From a virus, in IMG/VR virus record IMGVR_UViG_3300049855_000348, positions 156,490 to 220,489 of that record: a stretch of 64,000 nucleotides of DNA; one strand, 5' to 3'. The notes under the pieces were generated by a model. That model was not told the origin of the DNA. It made no database searches and saw nothing but the letters and a program-made list of their open reading frames with translations. Shown here in pieces: positions 34,166-64,000 of the stretch; positions within the stretch are counted from its first letter, which is position 1; each line of letters starts with the position of its first letter. The position numbers and the translations under genes were made by a program.

Positions 34166-35200
34166 ATGCAAAACACCATCATCTGCCCCGTTACCGGCGA
34201 CACCATGGTCGATGCTCTGGCATCGATTGATCCCGACCTCATCAACCAGAAGTGCCTGGACCACGGTTTCGTGAAGACCCTGGACTGCATGCCTCGTCTG
34301 ATCCCGATCGAAGCGAAGGGTTGCGACTTCGCCTTGGCTGACGCTGCCCGTATCAGCTACCAGAAGGGCACCCGCAAGGCCAACAGCGACACGGCTCTGA
34401 TCGACCACCTGATCCGCAACGAACACACCAGCCCCATCGAGATGGGTGAGTTGAAGTTCCACATCCGCCTGCCGATCTTCGTCATGCGCCAGCACGTTCG
34501 TCACCGCACTGCCTCCCTCAACGAGGAGTCAGCCCGCTACAGCGAACTGGCCGGCGATTTCTACATTCCTGAGCCTCAGAACTGGGCCATGAACACCGCT
34601 GCCAATAAGCAGGCTACGGTGAAATACGACATGCCCCAGGCAGTGGCCGACAAGCTCCACCAGTGGATCAAGGACCACAACGAGGATTCCTACCGTCTCT
34701 ACCAGCAACTGCTTGACGGGTCGGAGTCGGCTGACGCTGACATCGTCGTCCCTGGTATCGCCCGTGAACAGGCTCGCATGGTCCTCGGGGTGAACATCTA
34801 CACCCAGTGCGTCTGGAAGTGCGACCTCAAGAACCTGCTGCACTACCTGCGCCTGCGCACCGACAAGCATGCTCAGTCGGAGATCCGTGTCTTCGCTGAT
34901 GCCATCGCTCGGGTCGTAGCGGCCCTGTTCCCGGCCTCCTGGAACTCCTTCAAAGACAATTTCATCGAAGGGGTCCGCTTCTCCAGTGTGGAACTGGGGG
35001 TCGTTCGTTGGATCGACAGCATCCCTCGTGTCACGACTCCAGACACCTTCCAGGATATGCTCAAGGGTCTCGGTTGGAGCAAGACTCGTTGGATGGAGTT
35101 CAAGAAGAAGCTCGTCCGCTCCGGTCTGGGGAATGTCAGTGCAGAACAACTCGACCACCTGGAAGCTCTGGCTTTCCCGCCCGCGCCTGCCAAGGTCTGA
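34166..35200 (+). CDS. thyX: Flavin-dependent thymidylate synthase ThyX
   Basis: 344 residues. The ThyX motif R-H-R-x7-S is exact (RHR at 112-114, Ser 122) in FVMRQHVRHRTASLNEESARYS, and the C-terminal KNLLHYLRLR..HAQSEIRVFADAI completes the active site. It makes dTMP from dUMP using methylenetetrahydrofolate, NADPH and FAD. It is longer than usual (about 220-260): an N-terminal extension of about 45 residues with C-P-V-T-G-D and a C-terminal extension of about 80 that looks helical. With the dCTP deaminase at 37158 it forms a route from dCTP to dTMP. Confidence 0.93.
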   Translation: MQNTIICPVTGDTMVDALASIDPDLINQKCLDHGFVKTLDCMPRLIPIEAKGCDFALADAARISYQKGTRKANSDTALIDHLIRNEHTSPIEMGELKFHIRLPIFVMRQHVRHRTASLNEESARYSELAGDFYIPEPQNWAMNTAANKQATVKYDMPQAVADKLHQWIKDHNEDSYRLYQQLLDGSESADADIVVPGIAREQARMVLGVNIYTQCVWKCDLKNLLHYLRLRTDKHAQSEIRVFADAIARVVAALFPASWNSFKDNFIEGVRFSSVELGVVRWIDSIPRVTTPDTFQDMLKGLGWSKTRWMEFKKKLVRSGLGNVSAEQLDHLEALAFPPAPAKV

Positions 35201-36950: not shown

Positions 36951-37161
36951 ACCCAATCTCGGCTCCAGCCAAGTCAAGATCCTCAAGGATCTGAAGAAGT
37001 TGGAATCAGGGTATGGTGAAGTGCCTGGAGATCATCTGGCCAGAGCCCTCGACAAGCTCTACAACAAGGGCTACGTCAAGTTCCAGACCGTGAACGGAAA
37101 AAAGGTCTGGGCCATCACCAAGCAGGGCGTTGAAGCTCTCGATCGTAAAGGACTCTCATGA
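36940..37161 (+). CDS. Small winged-helix-like protein
   Basis: 73 residues, MHPEPNLGSSQVKILKDLKKLESGYGEVPGDHLARALDKLYNKGYVKFQTVNGKKVWAITKQGVEAL. Helix, helix, recognition helix and a two-strand wing (GYVKFQTVNGKKVWAITKQG) give a standard winged-helix pattern as in MarR/PadR-like modules. A DNA-binding regulator candidate. ATGA overlap with dcd. Confidence 0.72.
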   Translation: MHPEPNLGSSQVKILKDLKKLESGYGEVPGDHLARALDKLYNKGYVKFQTVNGKKVWAITKQGVEALDRKGLS

Positions 37162-37775
37162 AGCTCGGCGGCGAAGCGATCGAAGCACAGTTCACCAGCG
37201 GTGAATGGCGTGCCTACAAGGGAGACGAGTTGTTGACGATCGACAAGATCGCTCCGCTCATCGGACCCAACAGCATCGACGTGACACTGCACAAGCAGTT
37301 TCTCATCGCTCGCCTTGGAGAAGGTCATACCGTGGTCGACCCACGTGATCAGGCGTCGTTGGAGTGGGATCCATTCACTCTGGAAGATGATGATTCGCTC
37401 ATCATCCAACCCGGTGCCTTCATGCTCGGCTCGGTCAACGAACGCTTCGTCTGCGAAGCTCCGGTCCTGACAGAAGAGTACGGTCCTATCAAGAAACACC
37501 TCTTCGCCCCGATGTACGAGGGTCGCTCCTCCTGTGGTCGCCTGGGCATCGCCAGCCACATCACAGCCGGCTTCGGCGACTATGGCTTTGGCGGTGCTTT
37601 CACGCTGGAGATCTTCAACCATTTCCCCTTCCCGGTGATGCTCTACGCCGGCATGCGAATCGGTCAGGTAGCCTTCGATGAGGTCTTCAAGCCGAAGCGG
37701 TACGTAGGTGCATACTCCGGCTCGAATCACCACAACGGACCAGTGATGCCCAAACTCGGTCCAGATCGGTTCTGA
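37158..37775 (+). CDS. dcd: dCTP deaminase
   Basis: 205 residues. The trimeric dUTPase/dCTP deaminase fold shows in GPNSIDVTLHKQFLIA, GAFMLGSVNERF, EGRSSCGRLGI (Arg 123 and 128) and HITAGFGDYGFGGAFTLEI with the catalytic Glu at about 151, which separates dCTP deaminases from dUTPases. It converts dCTP to dUTP, or to dUMP if bifunctional. It feeds dUMP to ThyX and lowers the dCTP pool. Confidence 0.85.
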   Translation: MKLGGEAIEAQFTSGEWRAYKGDELLTIDKIAPLIGPNSIDVTLHKQFLIARLGEGHTVVDPRDQASLEWDPFTLEDDDSLIIQPGAFMLGSVNERFVCEAPVLTEEYGPIKKHLFAPMYEGRSSCGRLGIASHITAGFGDYGFGGAFTLEIFNHFPFPVMLYAGMRIGQVAFDEVFKPKRYVGAYSGSNHHNGPVMPKLGPDRF

Positions 37776-40565: not shown

Positions 40566-40892
40566 ATGCCGCTGAGCAAAGCTCAGATCCAGATTCTGAC
40601 CAACCCTGCTGTGCGTAAGCGGTTACCCGCCAGGGCGTCAGACTTCAAGTACGCCGACACCCTGCTCAGGGATGTGGGAGAGGGATGTCCTCGACTTCCA
40701 GCAGTCTGGACCAGGGTCTTCTCCAATCTCAGCCCAGCGGATGCTGCGTGGCTGAACCAGACCTTTCCCGGCCATCAATTCGCAGGTGTCGACCCCAAGG
40801 CACCACCACAGCCTTTGCCGCCGTTGGTGAAGCCGTCGAATATCGTTCACCGTGCGATTGAAGTCCTCCAGTCGTACAAGAAAGCCACATGA
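40566..40892 (+). CDS. Small protein heading the virion unit
   Basis: 108 residues, MPLSKAQIQILTNPAVRKRLPARASDFKYADTLLRDVG, then a Pro-rich turn (GVDPKAPPQPLPPLVKPSN) and a C-terminal helix. The ATG follows a late-type hexamer. Overlaps the 1289-residue gene by ATGA, so probably a virion or assembly component. No family recognised. Confidence 0.68.
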   Translation: MPLSKAQIQILTNPAVRKRLPARASDFKYADTLLRDVGEGCPRLPAVWTRVFSNLSPADAAWLNQTFPGHQFAGVDPKAPPQPLPPLVKPSNIVHRAIEVLQSYKKAT

Positions 40893-43800
40893 GCCTCGAT
40901 CGACCACTGTTCTCGACTAGCTCGGTGTATTCGTTGATCGAACTCAACGAAGTCATCACCCGCTACGCTCAAAACGATGAGCAGATGAAGGCTGTCGCCG
41001 AATCGCTCGAACAGATTCTCACCACCGTCTCGGCTGGTCAGATCCTGTCGCCGGCTGATCTCCAGGCTGCGGTCGATGCGATCTATGATGCCGGCAGTCC
41101 GCTGGCCCGTGCCTACATCGTCTCGCCCCCTTCTCGCTCACTGCAAGAGATTGCAAACCTGATGACGATCTCGCCACTGAGCGATCTCATCGAGGGAACC
41201 AAGCTCAACCCCACTGCCTGGATGCCCATCCTGCGCGTGTTCAGCATGCTCAAGGGCATGATCTACCTCGTCGAGAATGGCCCGAGCTACGACGCCGATC
41301 CGGTCTTCGTGAAAGATGGCTCGTTCTTCTTCACGTCGATCACTGATGGCAACAGCCCTGAGGGTCATCTCCTCTGTAGCGAAAATGGCACCGTGCTCGA
41401 AGTCGGTGGACCGATCTACCGTGTCCTGCCTGATGGCACTGATGCGATCACTCTGATCGAGTTTATGCTTCGCCGATTGGAGCAGCAACGCCTGCGCCAG
41501 ATCTATCGTTTGGGCTGCTTCGAGGCATCGGTCGATGCCAAGTACGACTCTGGCAGCAGCTACGATTTCATCGACAAGGTCTTCACCACCGGTGCGGGTC
41601 CTGAATTCAATCAGCGTTTCCCCTGTGGCTACACCGCAGCCGGTGAACTGCTGTTCCTGCGTTCGCAGGCTGGCAAGTACCGTGGTGCCGATCTCAACCT
41701 CTTCCGCCCTGGCTACAGTGCCCAGTCTGGCGTCGAAGATCGAGTCATCATCGGTGAGTCGACGGTGCAGACCCCGATGGGTCTCTTCCATATTCCGCAG
41801 TGCGTTGTGCGCTGGGATCACCTGCTGACCGATGAAGATCGTCAGCCGAATGCTGATGGCGATCCAGTCGTCTTCGTTGGCCTGCGCTTCAAGGTCAGCA
41901 TGCTGAAGCGTACCTCCTACGCCAATGGCGTAGCAGAGCCTGATGCCATCGTTGACGTTGGCACTGGTGATGGCGTCGTACTGATGAAGAGAAATGCCTT
42001 CGGCAGCGAGATCCCGAACTACCCAACGACGTTGACTGGTACCCAAGCTGAGAAGTTCCCAGCCGTCGCGGCTGAGGGTGTTGAACATGGTCGTGTGATC
42101 GGCTTCATCCAAAAGGATGGCCTGAACACCTTCGCTCAGTTCTTCCAGGTCTCACTCGACGTGGCGATCGTCAAACAGCACGGTCGTGCCTTCTTCGAGC
42201 AGGGTGTCGGCTACGCAGCCGGTCAGGTCGATGAGATCGGCAAGCTGGGTGAACTCGGTACCGACATCGACGTGGCCCCATGGCGTGCCTTCGGTACCGG
42301 TCCACGGCATGTGCTCGAAGTGGTGCAGACCGATGCCACGCTCGCCGGTGAAGGCTTCGTGCTTGATGTCGACCAGGGTGTCTTGAAGCGCGAGGAGAAG
42401 ACCTCCGACACTGCTGAATGGGAAGTCATCCTGCCCATCGGCCTGTCGCTGATGAAGAATCAGAAGCCCTTCAGCTTGGGTAACCTCAACGGCTGTTCGA
42501 CCCGCTTCACGGATGCCTGGGCAATCCGTCAGGTGACCAGCGTTCAGAAGTCCCTCAACACGGTCATCTTCGACGATGGCAATGGTGAGCCCGAAGCCTT
42601 CCCCCAGGACTTCATCGGTGCTGAGGTGACCTTCTGGCATGCCGACCGCACCAGCAGCGTGACCACCATCGTGGAGCGTGTTGGCGACCGTCTGGCTCGG
42701 ATCCCGACCGATGTGCTGGCCAAGGTCACCGCAGGTGATGTGGTCACCATCGACCGCCGTAAGCCGTCGAGCAGCTTCGATGGTGCCTACGAGCGTGAGG
42801 CCGGCATCACCAACTTCGTCGACCTGCGTCTGCTGGTACGCCGGATGGTCGATACCGAGGTCGTCCCAAGCTCGGAAGGGCTCCTCTCCCCCAGCCCGTC
42901 ACCAGCCCAGCCCTGGACCGCCCTGGTGCGTTCTAAGCCAGCTTCCCTGGTTCTGGCTGCCATGGCCCCATTCGCCGACAACGTGGCTGCAATCGGCAGC
43001 AAACTGCGTTGGCACTATGCCCAGCAGTTCATCGCCCTGGCCAGCCAGCGGCAGGACATGGTCGACATCACCGGCACCACAGCCGAGCTTCAGTCTTACC
43101 TGCTGCGGTGGGTTCAGAACTATGAGGCTAATAAGAACCACGAGTGGATCGTCGGCGAGGGCTCGATCATCCACTGGCCTGCCAAGAACCCGGTGACCAA
43201 GGTCAACCTGCGCCGATACAGCCCGCCCATCCTCCCTGGGGTGGACGACGGGATCACCATCGAAGAGGTCGCAGGCTGGGGTCCGGTGCCGGTGCTGACC
43301 AAGTACCTCCGCTCCGGTGACAACCAACGCTACCCGCTGCGCATCATCAAGCCGTTGGTCTTCGCCTCCGAGCGTTCCTTCTCGATCCCTGGCCACACCA
43401 AGCTCGCCGGCAGCTTCCGCTTCCAACCCGAGGACACCTGGATCGTTGACGAGGTGATAACCTTCGTCCTCTATCAGACCCAGAACCGCAATGGCCTGAT
43501 CCAGGAGGTGATCCTTGGTTCGTTCGACCTGCGTTGGCAGGAGGCATCCAACTTCTCAAACGCCACGGGCGTGTTCCGTATCGATGACGAGGCGAGCTAC
43601 GATCCGACGACTGGCTTCCTGAACATCAACTACAACCAGATCATCGACTTCACGGTTGAAGAGGCTGGTCGTCTGTCGGTCACTGCCGTCTATCATGACC
43701 TGACTGAGGTTCACCCGATCTACTCTTTCAACCTCGCCCAGTTCGGCCTGAACGTCAGCCATCTGGCCGATGCCAAGGTGTTCTCGATCGTGGACGGCAA

Positions 43801-44758
43801 GGTCGAAGAGAAGGCCGACGTGCTGCGCCTGGAAGGCATCTCGATTTCCAATGGTACGGTCTATATTCGCTTCAACCGTGATGACATCTTCAAAGCCATT
43901 GCTGTGCGTGGCATCTTCAAGACCAAGTGGGTGCTGCGCAACATCGCCTGGATCACCATCACCAACGTTTCGTACGACGAGAACAACATTCCGATCTCTG
44001 TGGAATACGATGCTCAGAACGTGCGTGATGCGATTACCATGTCGACACTGCTGGAAGCAGATAAACGCTGCCGTCAGGTCTACATCCCTTGTGCCACGAA
44101 GTATGGCTGGATCGATGTTGGCCAGACCAACATCCACACCGAGGCCATTCCTCAGAACGATAGTCCACGTTTCGGCTTCTTTGAACTCGACAACATCAAA
44201 GGCATCGACACGGCTCTGTTGATCGATGGTCCGGTCTACAATGCCTTCAAACCGGTCGACATCGACTATCGCTTCCTGGAGAAGTACGTCGACTCAACGG
44301 ATCTCGAAGAGATCAAATCAGTGGCCATCGTTCGTCACATCGTCACCGGCGCACGTCGCGTGTTCGTTGGTGTCTATCGTGAGGCCAACGGCGGCGGTGG
44401 AGTCACTGCTCTCAACAACGAGATCACGCTCGGCACATTGACTGATCAGGACGTTCTGTTCATCAACGATTCGCTGCTGGATTCGTCCTGGGTGCTGGAC
44501 TTCGCTGGTGTCATGACCACGGCACCTGATGGTGGCGTTGGTGACTTCGGTGACTCGAAGCTCATGCTGGCCGGTTACTGGTATGCCGGTCACTCGCTGG
44601 AGGACCGTGCTGGATCCTTCACACGCTTCCGCCCTGACACTGCTCAGTTCAACAGTCCGACCAAGAATGCCGACTTCTATCGTCTCGGCGATGTACCGAT
44701 GTCCTTCCTCTACCGTGGCAACACTCTGCTGTGGTCTGATCACACGAGACCGGCGTGA
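40889..44758 (+). CDS. Large virion-type structural protein, 1289 residues
   Basis: The largest gene in the window. Mostly beta-rich with repeated Val/Gly/Asp strands, few Cys, no enzymatic motif that I can see and no transmembrane segment. A helical N-terminal 100 residues (LIELNEVITRYAQNDEQMKAVAESLEQILTTV) is followed by several beta domains; a Pro/Ser hinge occurs near residue 670 (SSEGLLSPSPSPAQP). Size and composition fit a baseplate, tail or fibre component. Its last codons overlap the polyserine gene (GTGA), so the two are made together. Confidence 0.75.
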   Translation: MSLDRPLFSTSSVYSLIELNEVITRYAQNDEQMKAVAESLEQILTTVSAGQILSPADLQAAVDAIYDAGSPLARAYIVSPPSRSLQEIANLMTISPLSDLIEGTKLNPTAWMPILRVFSMLKGMIYLVENGPSYDADPVFVKDGSFFFTSITDGNSPEGHLLCSENGTVLEVGGPIYRVLPDGTDAITLIEFMLRRLEQQRLRQIYRLGCFEASVDAKYDSGSSYDFIDKVFTTGAGPEFNQRFPCGYTAAGELLFLRSQAGKYRGADLNLFRPGYSAQSGVEDRVIIGESTVQTPMGLFHIPQCVVRWDHLLTDEDRQPNADGDPVVFVGLRFKVSMLKRTSYANGVAEPDAIVDVGTGDGVVLMKRNAFGSEIPNYPTTLTGTQAEKFPAVAAEGVEHGRVIGFIQKDGLNTFAQFFQVSLDVAIVKQHGRAFFEQGVGYAAGQVDEIGKLGELGTDIDVAPWRAFGTGPRHVLEVVQTDATLAGEGFVLDVDQGVLKREEKTSDTAEWEVILPIGLSLMKNQKPFSLGNLNGCSTRFTDAWAIRQVTSVQKSLNTVIFDDGNGEPEAFPQDFIGAEVTFWHADRTSSVTTIVERVGDRLARIPTDVLAKVTAGDVVTIDRRKPSSSFDGAYEREAGITNFVDLRLLVRRMVDTEVVPSSEGLLSPSPSPAQPWTALVRSKPASLVLAAMAPFADNVAAIGSKLRWHYAQQFIALASQRQDMVDITGTTAELQSYLLRWVQNYEANKNHEWIVGEGSIIHWPAKNPVTKVNLRRYSPPILPGVDDGITIEEVAGWGPVPVLTKYLRSGDNQRYPLRIIKPLVFASERSFSIPGHTKLAGSFRFQPEDTWIVDEVITFVLYQTQNRNGLIQEVILGSFDLRWQEASNFSNATGVFRIDDEASYDPTTGFLNINYNQIIDFTVEEAGRLSVTAVYHDLTEVHPIYSFNLAQFGLNVSHLADAKVFSIVDGKVEEKADVLRLEGISISNGTVYIRFNRDDIFKAIAVRGIFKTKWVLRNIAWITITNVSYDENNIPISVEYDAQNVRDAITMSTLLEADKRCRQVYIPCATKYGWIDVGQTNIHTEAIPQNDSPRFGFFELDNIKGIDTALLIDGPVYNAFKPVDIDYRFLEKYVDSTDLEEIKSVAIVRHIVTGARRVFVGVYREANGGGGVTALNNEITLGTLTDQDVLFINDSLLDSSWVLDFAGVMTTAPDGGVGDFGDSKLMLAGYWYAGHSLEDRAGSFTRFRPDTAQFNSPTKNADFYRLGDVPMSFLYRGNTLLWSDHTRPA

Positions 44759-44883
44759 CCAGACCGTTTCCTTATATTGAATTGCAATGCAATTTCGCAG
44801 AGATTGTTATCTGTGCTGAGTCTTCATCGTCTTCTAATGCATCAAGTTCATCAAGTTCTTCTTCATCATCGAGTAATCCATAA
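44755..44883 (+). CDS. Small polyserine-tail protein, copy A (GTG start)
   Basis: A 42-codon gene whose GTG overlaps the stop of the 1289-residue virion gene (GTGA), so translation is coupled. Sequence: MTRPFPYIELQCNFAEIVIC, then AE, five Ser, Asn-Ala, eleven Ser, Asn-Pro, stop. The head (R-P-F-P-Y-I-E-L-x-C-x-F-x-x-I-x-I-C) matches the head of the gene at 63759 at nine identical positions with conservative changes elsewhere, which supports it as real coding sequence. Ser codons are mixed (TCA, TCT, TCG, AGT), so the tail is not a recent repeat. Two Cys seven residues apart could pair or bind a partner. Function unknown; a virion-linked, possibly modified or disordered tail is inferred. Confidence 0.72.
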   Translation: MTRPFPYIELQCNFAEIVICAESSSSSNASSSSSSSSSSSNP

Positions 44884-44895
44884 AGTGTAATTTTC

Positions 44896-47229
44896 TTATG
44901 ATAACATCTTGGCTAGCTGTTCATCCGACGGCATCTTGTTGACGTTGAGTGGTGTCACTCGTGGTCCAACTGAGATATGTTGGTCACCGATGCGAACCTT
45001 GCGACCGTTGCCGATGTAGGCGGTAGCTGAACCAGTGCTGTGATCGGTTGCCCAAGACAGCGTCCGCTTCACAGCCTTCTCTACAGCACGGCGAGCCGCA
45101 GCCATCTTGGGGTTGCGAACCACTGCTGGCTTGCGGGCAGACTGGAAATGTACGTCCTTCGAGAGTTTCCCGACAGGGTTCTGTTTCGAGATGGATTGCG
45201 CTGGTGCTGAATTCTGTTGTGAAGTCGGAAGATCATAGTTCCGACCGATGATCATCTCGTCGACCTTGTCCCAATCTGGGTGAGGCGACTGACCGGTGAT
45301 GTTGTGAAATCTTACGAACTGTTCATCAGCGTCATCAGCGTCACTGCGCTTGGCGACATACTCAGTCTTCCACATCTCTTTCAGATGGCGATTGTAGTTG
45401 AGGATGTCGCATGCCTCGATCAGTCGCGGCAGGTCCTTGCTGATGTTGACATCGAAGTTGGCAAACGAACCTTCCATCATCACCACGTAACGCTTCTCAA
45501 ACAGTTCGGCCATGCCGTTGATCATGTCATCCAACTGGTGATCGTAGAAGCCTTCGGCACAGGTGCCGATCATGATCGCCTTGGCAGCTTCGTAGACTGG
45601 GCTGTCCTGGAGCTTCTTCAATTCTGTTGGCTTGATGGCAGCCGACTCCTCGCCGGCCTTCATCGAGTCACGAACCTTCAAAGCCTCGGTCACACCACGT
45701 TGAAAGTGGGGAATGCCATGACGACGTTTCACTTGGGCATAGAATTCGTTAGCAGCCATCCAAACAGAGACGTGTCCCCATTCGGTCTTTGGCTCGGTCC
45801 AATGCCAGTGGATCGTACCGAACAACTCCTTCAGGCCACGGCTGACATGAGGTGCGGTGTTGACCACATGATCGAGATCAATCTCAGAAGCCTGTCCGTA
45901 TGCCTTGAGACGACGATGAAGCTCGATCAGCACATCGCGCCACACAGCGGCACGTGGGTCGATTCCACGGATCGGCTTCCACTCGCTTCTTGGCTTCACA
46001 TCATGCGCCAGCTTGGCAATGTGACTGACACCATCGTCGAGTGTCTGATCACGTCCAATGCTGTAATCGATCACACCGCCTTCGGTGTAAGCAGACACCC
46101 CGGTCGTTGCTCTGATATGTTGGCCTTCCTGGCGATGTTTTGGCTTGCCAGGAACTTCTCCCTTGTCTGTGAACTTGATGCTGGTCGACACTGCCCGTCC
46201 ACGCTTGGTGATGGCCACGCGAGGCATGCTCAGGTTGACCTTGCCGGTGGTTGGAAGTGGATTGGTGAAGGCTTGAATGCCGCCGTGAACTGCACCCAAG
46301 CGAATGATCTGATCACGTGGATCGATGGCGTTGATGACACGACTGATGACCTTGCGTTCACTACGCTCTGGGTTCCAGACTGAAGGATTATATTCGCCCT
46401 TCTTCTGTTGAGCGGTTTGGAACACGTCGATGATGTCGAAAGCATCGGAACGCATGAAGAATGCTTGTTCTGGTTCACCGTGGTAGACCACGGCATCCTC
46501 GGGTCCCTTGGCAGTGTCGATCACGACACTGATTCCAGCCTTCAGGAAGCGAGCACGCTGATCATTGTGGTTGAGAACACGCTTGGCGAATAGCTTGTAA
46601 CCGTTGACCGTGTTGGCCAAATCAAAGCCTGATTGAGAGGCAAAGAAGAACGCCTTCGGCACCGTCACGGGATGTGGCGACACTTTGGAAGCAGTCATCT
46701 CCCAGATGTCTTGCCAGAATTTTTCGACCGGTACGTCATCTCCCTGCGGAAGGACCTCCATCACATTGAGGATCTTCAACGCAGCGTCTTTGGTAAGAGT
46801 CTGAAGATCGAGTACCTTAGCGTTCGGTCGTAGTTTGATGACGCGCAGGTACCGAGAGTTGCCGGCGTAAGGAATACCGGCCTGCTCACTGATCACGAAT
46901 TCGAGCGGGTAGGTGTAGATGGCAGCCGGGTCAGAGTGGTTGGGCTTGGTCCACAGTGTAGTGTCAGGATGAGGGGTACGGGCAGCTTTGAGTCCGAGCT
47001 TTTTACGGTTCGTTGTCCAGTACCGTTCCTCGTAACCCGGTTCTGGACTTCTACCATATTGCGAGCCTACCATTCGCTTGTCATCGGTCGACGAGGCGAA
47101 GTTGGTGAACTGCACGAACAGGTCTTTGCGATGTGCCTGCGGCGTGTACTTGGCGACGAACTCACGCCAGCCCTTGGTGGACACATCAGAGACCAGAACC
47201 TCAGTGACGAGTTGATTGTAGAGATCCAT
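44896..47229 (-). CDS. Late protein, 777 residues, paralogue of 48123-49820
   Basis: Leftward, second gene of the unit that starts with lysozyme. It shares with the 565-residue protein a domain containing N-H-S-D-P-x-x-[IT]-Y-x-Y-P-x-E-[FY]-V (about 100-116), a following Y-x(4)-LRV-[IL]-K block, and a later V-V-I-D-x-A-K-x-P-x-[DE]-A-x-[VI]-Y-x-x-E-P-E-Q-A segment. The E-P-E-Q-A turn and the YP block recall proteins of many phages that are thought to be carried in the virion; an ADP-ribosyltransferase-like fold is possible but unproven. The C-terminal 350 residues are unique to this copy. It ends 13 bases from the polyserine gene on the other strand. Confidence 0.72.
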   Translation of the reverse strand: MDLYNQLVTEVLVSDVSTKGWREFVAKYTPQAHRKDLFVQFTNFASSTDDKRMVGSQYGRSPEPGYEERYWTTNRKKLGLKAARTPHPDTTLWTKPNHSDPAAIYTYPLEFVISEQAGIPYAGNSRYLRVIKLRPNAKVLDLQTLTKDAALKILNVMEVLPQGDDVPVEKFWQDIWEMTASKVSPHPVTVPKAFFFASQSGFDLANTVNGYKLFAKRVLNHNDQRARFLKAGISVVIDTAKGPEDAVVYHGEPEQAFFMRSDAFDIIDVFQTAQQKKGEYNPSVWNPERSERKVISRVINAIDPRDQIIRLGAVHGGIQAFTNPLPTTGKVNLSMPRVAITKRGRAVSTSIKFTDKGEVPGKPKHRQEGQHIRATTGVSAYTEGGVIDYSIGRDQTLDDGVSHIAKLAHDVKPRSEWKPIRGIDPRAAVWRDVLIELHRRLKAYGQASEIDLDHVVNTAPHVSRGLKELFGTIHWHWTEPKTEWGHVSVWMAANEFYAQVKRRHGIPHFQRGVTEALKVRDSMKAGEESAAIKPTELKKLQDSPVYEAAKAIMIGTCAEGFYDHQLDDMINGMAELFEKRYVVMMEGSFANFDVNISKDLPRLIEACDILNYNRHLKEMWKTEYVAKRSDADDADEQFVRFHNITGQSPHPDWDKVDEMIIGRNYDLPTSQQNSAPAQSISKQNPVGKLSKDVHFQSARKPAVVRNPKMAAARRAVEKAVKRTLSWATDHSTGSATAYIGNGRKVRIGDQHISVGPRVTPLNVNKMPSDEQLAKMLS

Positions 47230-63279: not shown

Positions 63280-63687
63280 TCAGTAGAACAGGACGCGCAT
63301 CGAGCCATCAGGTTCCAGTACGGTGGAGATGCCTCGGAATACGAACATTTCACGCTGGGTCAGGGCGACCAATTCAGCCCATGCCTCGTTGGTGTTTGGG
63401 ATGTTCATCACCTTGCCAGCGACCGACTTGGGTGTGGTCACCGAGACCTTCTCACCCATCAGAAAACCAGCGATCTCGTTGATGCCCTTGCTGTCCTTCA
63501 GCAGGGCGTTCTGGATCTCCATGGCGCACTTGCAGTTGGGGTTGTCCTGGTAGCTGTTGATGTTCGCTTCCTGATTGGGGAAGCGTTCGAGGAACCTCCG
63601 GCGACGGGCGACCTCTTCAGGTGTTGGTGCGGCAGCATTCTGATACCGCAGAGCCTGGGTCAGTTGTTGAACGGTAAGTGCTAGCAT
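63280..63687 (-). CDS. Unknown 135-residue protein
   Basis: MLALTVQQLTQALRYQNAAAPTPEEVARRRRFLERFPNQEANINSYQDNPNCKCAMEIQNALLKDSKG. Helical first half with CKC, beta-rich end (EMFVFRGISTVLEPDGSMRVLFY). TCTATA lies seven bases before its ATG, a looser form of the late hexamer. Function unknown. Confidence 0.7.
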   Translation of the reverse strand: MLALTVQQLTQALRYQNAAAPTPEEVARRRRFLERFPNQEANINSYQDNPNCKCAMEIQNALLKDSKGINEIAGFLMGEKVSVTTPKSVAGKVMNIPNTNEAWAELVALTQREMFVFRGISTVLEPDGSMRVLFY

Positions 63688-63758: not shown

Positions 63759-64000
63759 GTGAGACCAGATCCTTTCATCGATATCGTATGTGGATTTTCT
63801 AAAATCCAGTTGTGTCTCGGTTCTTCGGGTCCGTCATCATCCAGTCTTTTTTCTTCAAGCTCTTCTTCGTCCTCAAGCTCAAGCTCGTCAAGCTCAAGCT
63901 CGTCAAGCTCAAGCTCGTCAAGCTCAAGCTCGTCAAGCTCAAGCTCGTCAAGCTCAAGCTCGTCAAGCTCAAGCTCGTCAAGCTCAAGCTCGTCAAGCTC
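63759..64000 (+). CDS. Polyserine-tail protein, copy B, truncated by the window end
   Basis: A rightward frame from the GTG at 63759, open to the window end (80 codons). Head: MRPDPFIDIVCGFSKIQLCL, then G-S-S-G-P-S4-L-F, and from residue 32 an uninterrupted run of 49 Ser. The head matches copy A at 44755 (R-P-x-P-[FY]-I-[DE]-[IL]-x-C-x-F-x-x-I-x-[IL]-C), including two Cys eight apart in position. From residue 39 all codons come from the 15-bp repeat TCAAGCTCAAGCTCG, read as five Ser. The upstream stop is at 63741, and no ATG is available. The opposite strand is also open over the repeat (ELDEL pattern) but has no start and no matching relative. Confidence 0.7.
   Translation, partial: MRPDPFIDIVCGFSKIQLCLGSSGPSSSSLFSSSSSSSSSSSSSSSSSSSSSSSSSSSSSSSSSSSSSSSSSSSSSSSSS
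63873..64000 (+). repeat. 15-bp tandem repeat, about 8.5 copies, runs off the window
   Basis: Unit TCAAGCTCAAGCTCG in perfect tandem copies from 63873 to the end. In the frame of copy B every codon is Ser (TCA, AGC, TCA, AGC, TCG). Perfect identity suggests recent expansion or homogenisation. Confidence 0.95.

Follow-up and report, generated by a model that had tools for sequence, protein, structure and literature searches.

A head peptide common to a small polyserine-tailed protein and a probable Ig-like domain protein in a tailed phage

What a 42-codon gene ending in a nearly pure serine tail might contribute to a tailed phage is the question raised by a 64,000-nucleotide stretch of viral DNA (the window), which forms the last 64 kb of the 220,489-bp IMG/VR record IMGVR_UViG_3300049855_000348 (positions 156,490 to 220,489). 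A reading made from the letters alone (the sequence-only reading) had paired this open reading frame (ORF), here called copy A, with a second one at the end of the window, copy B, and had proposed a hidden family of small proteins with a cysteine-containing head and a polyserine tail. The ORF of copy A was confirmed, with a GTG start that overlaps the stop codon of a 1289-codon ORF (GTGA) and a serine-rich end consisting of a run of 11 Ser residues followed by Asn-Pro and the stop. The match between the two heads also held, whereas copy B is best read as a longer protein in which the serine run leads into an immunoglobulin (Ig)-like domain. Coordinates are collected in Table 1.

Aligned without gaps, the heads of A and B give a BLOSUM62 score of 55 with 8 of 18 residues identical, a similarity far above chance. 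Among the 273,779 stop-free 18-mers in the six frames of the whole record the runner-up reaches 27 when compared with A and 31 when compared with B, and a score of 55 was not attained in 200,000 shuffles of B. Runs of eight or more Ser residues occur in the record only at the A and B loci (the two record ends being counted as one locus). Different codons are used at five of the eight identical head residues, and the two heads differ at 8, 5 and 13 of the 18 first, second and third codon positions, respectively; together these features imply conservation at the protein level between old paralogues, on a basis of 18 codons. As judged from this comparison, the heads of A and B are shown to be paralogous and the head to be under protein-level constraint, and copy A is real and probably a functional paralogue of the B head. 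In the AlphaFold model of A, computed from an alignment of two sequences and of moderate confidence, the head forms a β-hairpin and the tail is disordered.

The window and the record both end within the Ser array of copy B, which is built from a 15-bp unit, TCAAGCTCAAGCTCG, encoding five Ser residues, and the opposite end of the record opens with the same 128 bp. Past the array at the record start the Ser frame continues for 88 residues (DCTLPSMIS...IISGGS), its stop codon ending at record position 435. Because the same 32-bp motif is present at both array edges and the frame is preserved for all possible overlap lengths of the record ends, the two ends are taken to represent one array split by the assembler. 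A 128-bp join gives 63 Ser residues and a 182-residue protein, although the true repeat number may be larger. The apparent 128-bp terminal repeat is best explained by this 15-bp coding array, so that judging completeness from the repeated ends would amount to judging it from a tandem array; the coding array could pass for a true direct terminal repeat.

The C-terminal 88 residues of B match the Pfam family He_PIG (PF05345; 35.4 bits against a cut-off of 24, E = 1.5e-8), and the AlphaFold model of this Ig-like domain has a predicted local distance difference test (pLDDT) score of 89 and a predicted template-modelling (pTM) score of 0.79. It is closest to the tail collar protein of Tenacibaculum phage pT24, to other phage Ig domains and tail fibre domains and to PHROG 8763, annotated as 'tail protein', and its nearest matches in the PDB are domains of putative α-galactosidases and of the adhesin SraP. 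No He_PIG match was found in A. Copy B is thus best read as a head, ∼63 or more Ser residues and an 88-residue Ig-like domain, provided that the record closes on itself, and since it continues into such a domain its polyserine run is read as a flexible stalk. The earlier claim that two independent loci carry the same head and the same kind of tail therefore stands for the head and falls for the tail, as the B array leads in frame to an Ig-like domain; what had appeared to be a second copy was a truncation artefact, an Ig-domain protein interrupted where a repeat ends the contig. The suggestion of a disordered spacer peptide fared better, given the disordered tail in the model of A and the use of the Ser run in B as an interdomain linker. 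Past the end of B lie a 355-residue ORF and, near B, a protein with DUF2341 and Laminin_G_3 domains, a lectin-like, adhesion-type module.

The head motif gave no true match in other phages when IMG/VR, the phage collection, the GTDB genomes and 43 poly-Ser records were searched. A tblastn search with A against phages returned nothing, which is a weak test, since masking removes the Ser tail and leaves a short head. The strict head pattern has no match in IMG/VR, and its two matches in GTDB genomes lack a Ser tail and were rejected as chance. Without the Pro requirement the pattern gave eight matches and P-F-I-[DE]-I-x-C-x-F gave 36, none of them with a Ser tail behind; the A and B heads compared with the 43 poly-Ser records retrieved only their own record, the positive control. 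Neither head has a PHROG or Pfam hit. Patterns this short and degenerate can let distant relatives escape. The proposed family of small Cys-head, polyserine-tail proteins is unsupported, because B is an Ig-domain protein at a contig end and none of the other phages searched yielded the head.

The reading that we tentatively prefer, at a probability slightly short of even, is an anchor peptide followed by a serine stalk and, in B, by a displayed adhesion domain, with A representing the same anchor with a short stub. Both proteins would be built on one N-terminal docking peptide, a β-hairpin of ∼19 residues with two Cys residues. In B this peptide would lead through a long flexible polyserine stalk (∼63 Ser or more) to an Ig-like adhesion domain, making B a tethered binding domain shown on the particle surface, and the 15-bp array would let the length of the stalk shift in five-residue steps. 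Copy A would comprise only the docking peptide and a short hydrophilic Ser stub and would fill the same site without a binder, so that the B copies would be thinned out or spaced. We infer that both proteins are on the virion, that the head docks, that the Ig domain serves adhesion and that A plays the role described and competes with B. The testable idea is that the payload of a single docking peptide would be an Ig domain in one protein and a short stub of Ser in the other.

Several observations weigh against this proposal. The head has no homologue in any protein of known location, and its model was built on two sequences with moderate confidence. Closure of the record within the array is itself inferred, and the joining of B would fail if the genome had a second array that was not assembled. 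B is a lone plus-strand gene among minus-strand genes, with no obvious virion operon, and A lies directly behind an ORF without an assigned function, with nucleotide-metabolism genes further upstream.

The position of A, which occupies the gap between the 1289-codon ORF and a convergent 777-codon ORF, could also be that of a relic. On this view a B-type gene was duplicated and was deprived of its Ig domain by the arrival of the 777-codon gene; it may still be translated but would have no role. Copy A does equal B minus the Ig domain, and between its stop and the end of the convergent ORF there are just 12 bases, which leaves no room for a domain remnant. However, the 13 third-position differences in 18 codons are near saturation, yet the motif residues persist, as does an open and clean Ser frame that mixes TCN with AGT codons. 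A relic of such age should have decayed, and this explanation is therefore considered unlikely.

The gene on the other side of A raises a different possibility. The sequence-only reading had taken the 1289-codon ORF for a virion gene, for which no support was obtained: searches of Pfam, PHROGs, the phage collection and IMG/VR gave no hit for it, and a PDB search no significant one. Copy A could be a small partner of its product, a coupled chaperone or assembly peptide, with a head that shares the binding partner of B for unrelated purposes. The GTGA start-stop overlap and the location of A directly behind this gene agree with such coupling, but stop-start overlaps are frequent between adjacent phage genes, the 1289-residue protein is without known function and B carries the same head without such a neighbour, so that a partner peptide appears improbable. 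Other readings of the A region were rejected. Copy A lies in the −1 frame relative to the 1289-codon ORF, but inspection by eye of the surroundings of the overlap revealed no slippery heptamer for a programmed frameshift; RNA folding of the region is poorer than that of most shuffles; and no promoter-like site was found, with a single weak terminator-like match that is within chance.

The serine runs could instead act as acceptors for a modification such as an O-linked sugar, in which case the phage would make a sugar-coated stalk or tail. Two glycosyltransferases of family 25 (GT25) are indeed encoded by the phage, one of them within a fusion protein of 953 residues that also has a GT9-like part and an FkbM methyltransferase, and the other encoded by a small gene. 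Neither is linked to A or B, however, and no family 25 member turned up in 26 other poly-Ser records, of which many are fragments. Enzymes of family 25 often act on lipopolysaccharide. Sugar modification of the Ser runs is accordingly regarded as very unlikely. Immediately upstream of the small GT25 gene lies a gene for a SPASM-domain protein (L009:13448-14209, plus strand).

Polyserine tails are not confined to this phage. At least 119 stretches in IMG/VR match one poly-Ser codon pattern, and in 75 of 98 poly-Ser ORFs from 80 loci, a set chosen for poly-Ser that includes near-identical phages and is not a random sample, the Ser stretch lies within 25 residues of the C-terminus. In a control of 647 kb of loci taken for other reasons no run of ten Ser residues was found. 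The Ser-tailed proteins tested include minor tail proteins, a baseplate wedge protein, a glycoside hydrolase and members of a PHROG named head scaffolding. Several such proteins, structural ones included, occur per genome in unrelated contigs (L226, L186, L162, L164, L174 and others), with up to five Ser-tailed ORFs in one locus (L186). One unrelated contig (L158) encodes a protein made up of a short head, a polyserine run and a Laminin_G_3 domain, a layout resembling that of B; He_PIG was not seen in the other poly-Ser records. A small protein with four Cys residues is also conserved (MxxPAYKCPFKNN...CExxxCGxYN...DCN, then a poly-Ser tail), and the member tested, from L226, has no PHROG hit. 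This family has the layout imagined in the sequence-only reading, but its heads show no homology to that of A, and it was rejected as kin.

No account of polyserine C-terminal tails on phage proteins was found in a partial literature collection, and their presence on structural proteins of many unrelated viral contigs is thus a pattern without description in the literature searched. Such tails could be a recurrent, so far undescribed accessory of phage structural proteins that forms a brush, hydrophilic or modified, on the particle. Copy A would be a minimal free-standing version attached through the docking peptide that it has in common with its Ig-displaying partner. This wider reading is rather doubtful. 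The Ser-tailed IMG/VR proteins (L226, L186, L162 and L180) resemble A in that their C-terminal Ser tails end a few residues before the stop, with several per genome, but most are full-size minor tail, head or baseplate proteins and their heads are unrelated to that of A.

Table 1. Positions of copies A and B, their parts and other genes mentioned in the text (window numbering unless a locus is given)
Feature	Position	Strand	Remarks
Copy A, 42-codon ORF, head and Ser tail	44755-44883	+	GTG start; Ser-rich tail 44815-44880
Head of A	44755-44814	+	VTRPFPYIELQCNFAEIVIC; predicted β-hairpin (AlphaFold); similar to B head
Copy B, 5' part, head and start of polyserine stalk	63759-64000	+	Continues outside the window at record 1-435 (L005:1-435) into Ig-like (He_PIG) domain
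Head of B	63759-63815	+	VRPDPFIDIVCGFSKIQLC; similar to A head
15-bp Ser-coding array	63873-64000	+	TCAAGCTCAAGCTCG, 8.5 copies, 100% identical; identical to first 128 bp of record (L005:1-128)
1289-codon ORF	40889-44758	+	Stop overlaps A start; no recognisable relative
777-codon ORF	44896-47229	-	Convergent with A and bounding its gene; no recognisable relative
135-codon ORF	63280-63687	-	Divergent from B; no family hit
Thy1	34166-35200		Upstream of A
dCTP deaminase	37158-37775		Upstream of A
GT25 fusion	L006:11648-14509	-	953 residues; GT9-like part and FkbM methyltransferase
Small GT25 gene	L009:14209-14901	+	
Four-Cys Ser-tailed protein	L226:4162-4338	+	
Four-Cys Ser-tailed protein	L155:596-781	+	
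Four-Cys Ser-tailed protein	L162:10490-10681	-	
Four-Cys Ser-tailed protein	L174:5062-5241	-	
Four-Cys Ser-tailed protein	L190:37-249	+	

The record belongs to a tailed phage and encodes a T4-type portal and baseplate wedge, a terminase, a tape-measure match, a DNA polymerase and a helicase. The phage is of an isolated lineage; the relatives of its portal in IMG/VR comprise one at 54% identity on an 11-kb contig and others at ∼30%. A 3994-codon ORF spanning 12 kb is present in the same phage (L011:7178-19162, minus strand). No Rfam hits and no tRNA were found in the window.

Known systems provide parallels for both the serine run and the anchored Ig-like domain of the preferred reading, in which one docking peptide carries two payloads. 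Polyserine linkers join the domains of polysaccharide-degrading enzymes from marine bacteria, where they are thought to be flexible and often stand beside sugar-binding modules (Howard et al., 2004, cited in PMC2386152 and PMC10598543). In bacteria, poly-serine tracts have also been linked to the binding of polysaccharides, in a survey of low-complexity regions (PMC6821194). As in the marine enzymes, a long homopolymeric Ser run parts two functional domains in B, if the record closes; the marine linkers belong to bacterial enzymes, however, and the run of A is terminal, with nothing behind it.

The Hoc proteins of T4-like phages carry Ig-like domains on a conserved anchor, and phages Muldoon and PG7 each have two Hoc proteins that differ in make-up and have a capsid-binding domain in common (PMC10385173), which corresponds to two payloads per anchor, as A and B would represent. 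The Hoc anchor differs in being mostly C-terminal and larger, and the linkers are short, with no polyserine stalk described there (PMC10385173). In T5 pb10 an N-terminal attachment part is followed by a poly-proline linker and an exposed C-terminal Ig-like domain, the capsid-binding domain being α-helical and of ∼75 residues (PMC5292684). The layout of B, with an attachment part, a linker and an Ig-like domain, is alike, but its head is of ∼19 residues and predicted to be a β-hairpin, its linker is polyserine and no sequence relation is shown. Measured against proteins of the pb10 and Hoc type, an Ig-like domain on a linker is found in B only (if the record closes), A being without the domain, and neither head is a homologue of the capsid-binding domain. 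The finding is of an anchored, linker-borne, Ig-like phage accessory protein of a kind already known, together with a polyserine tail that is recurrent and poorly described.
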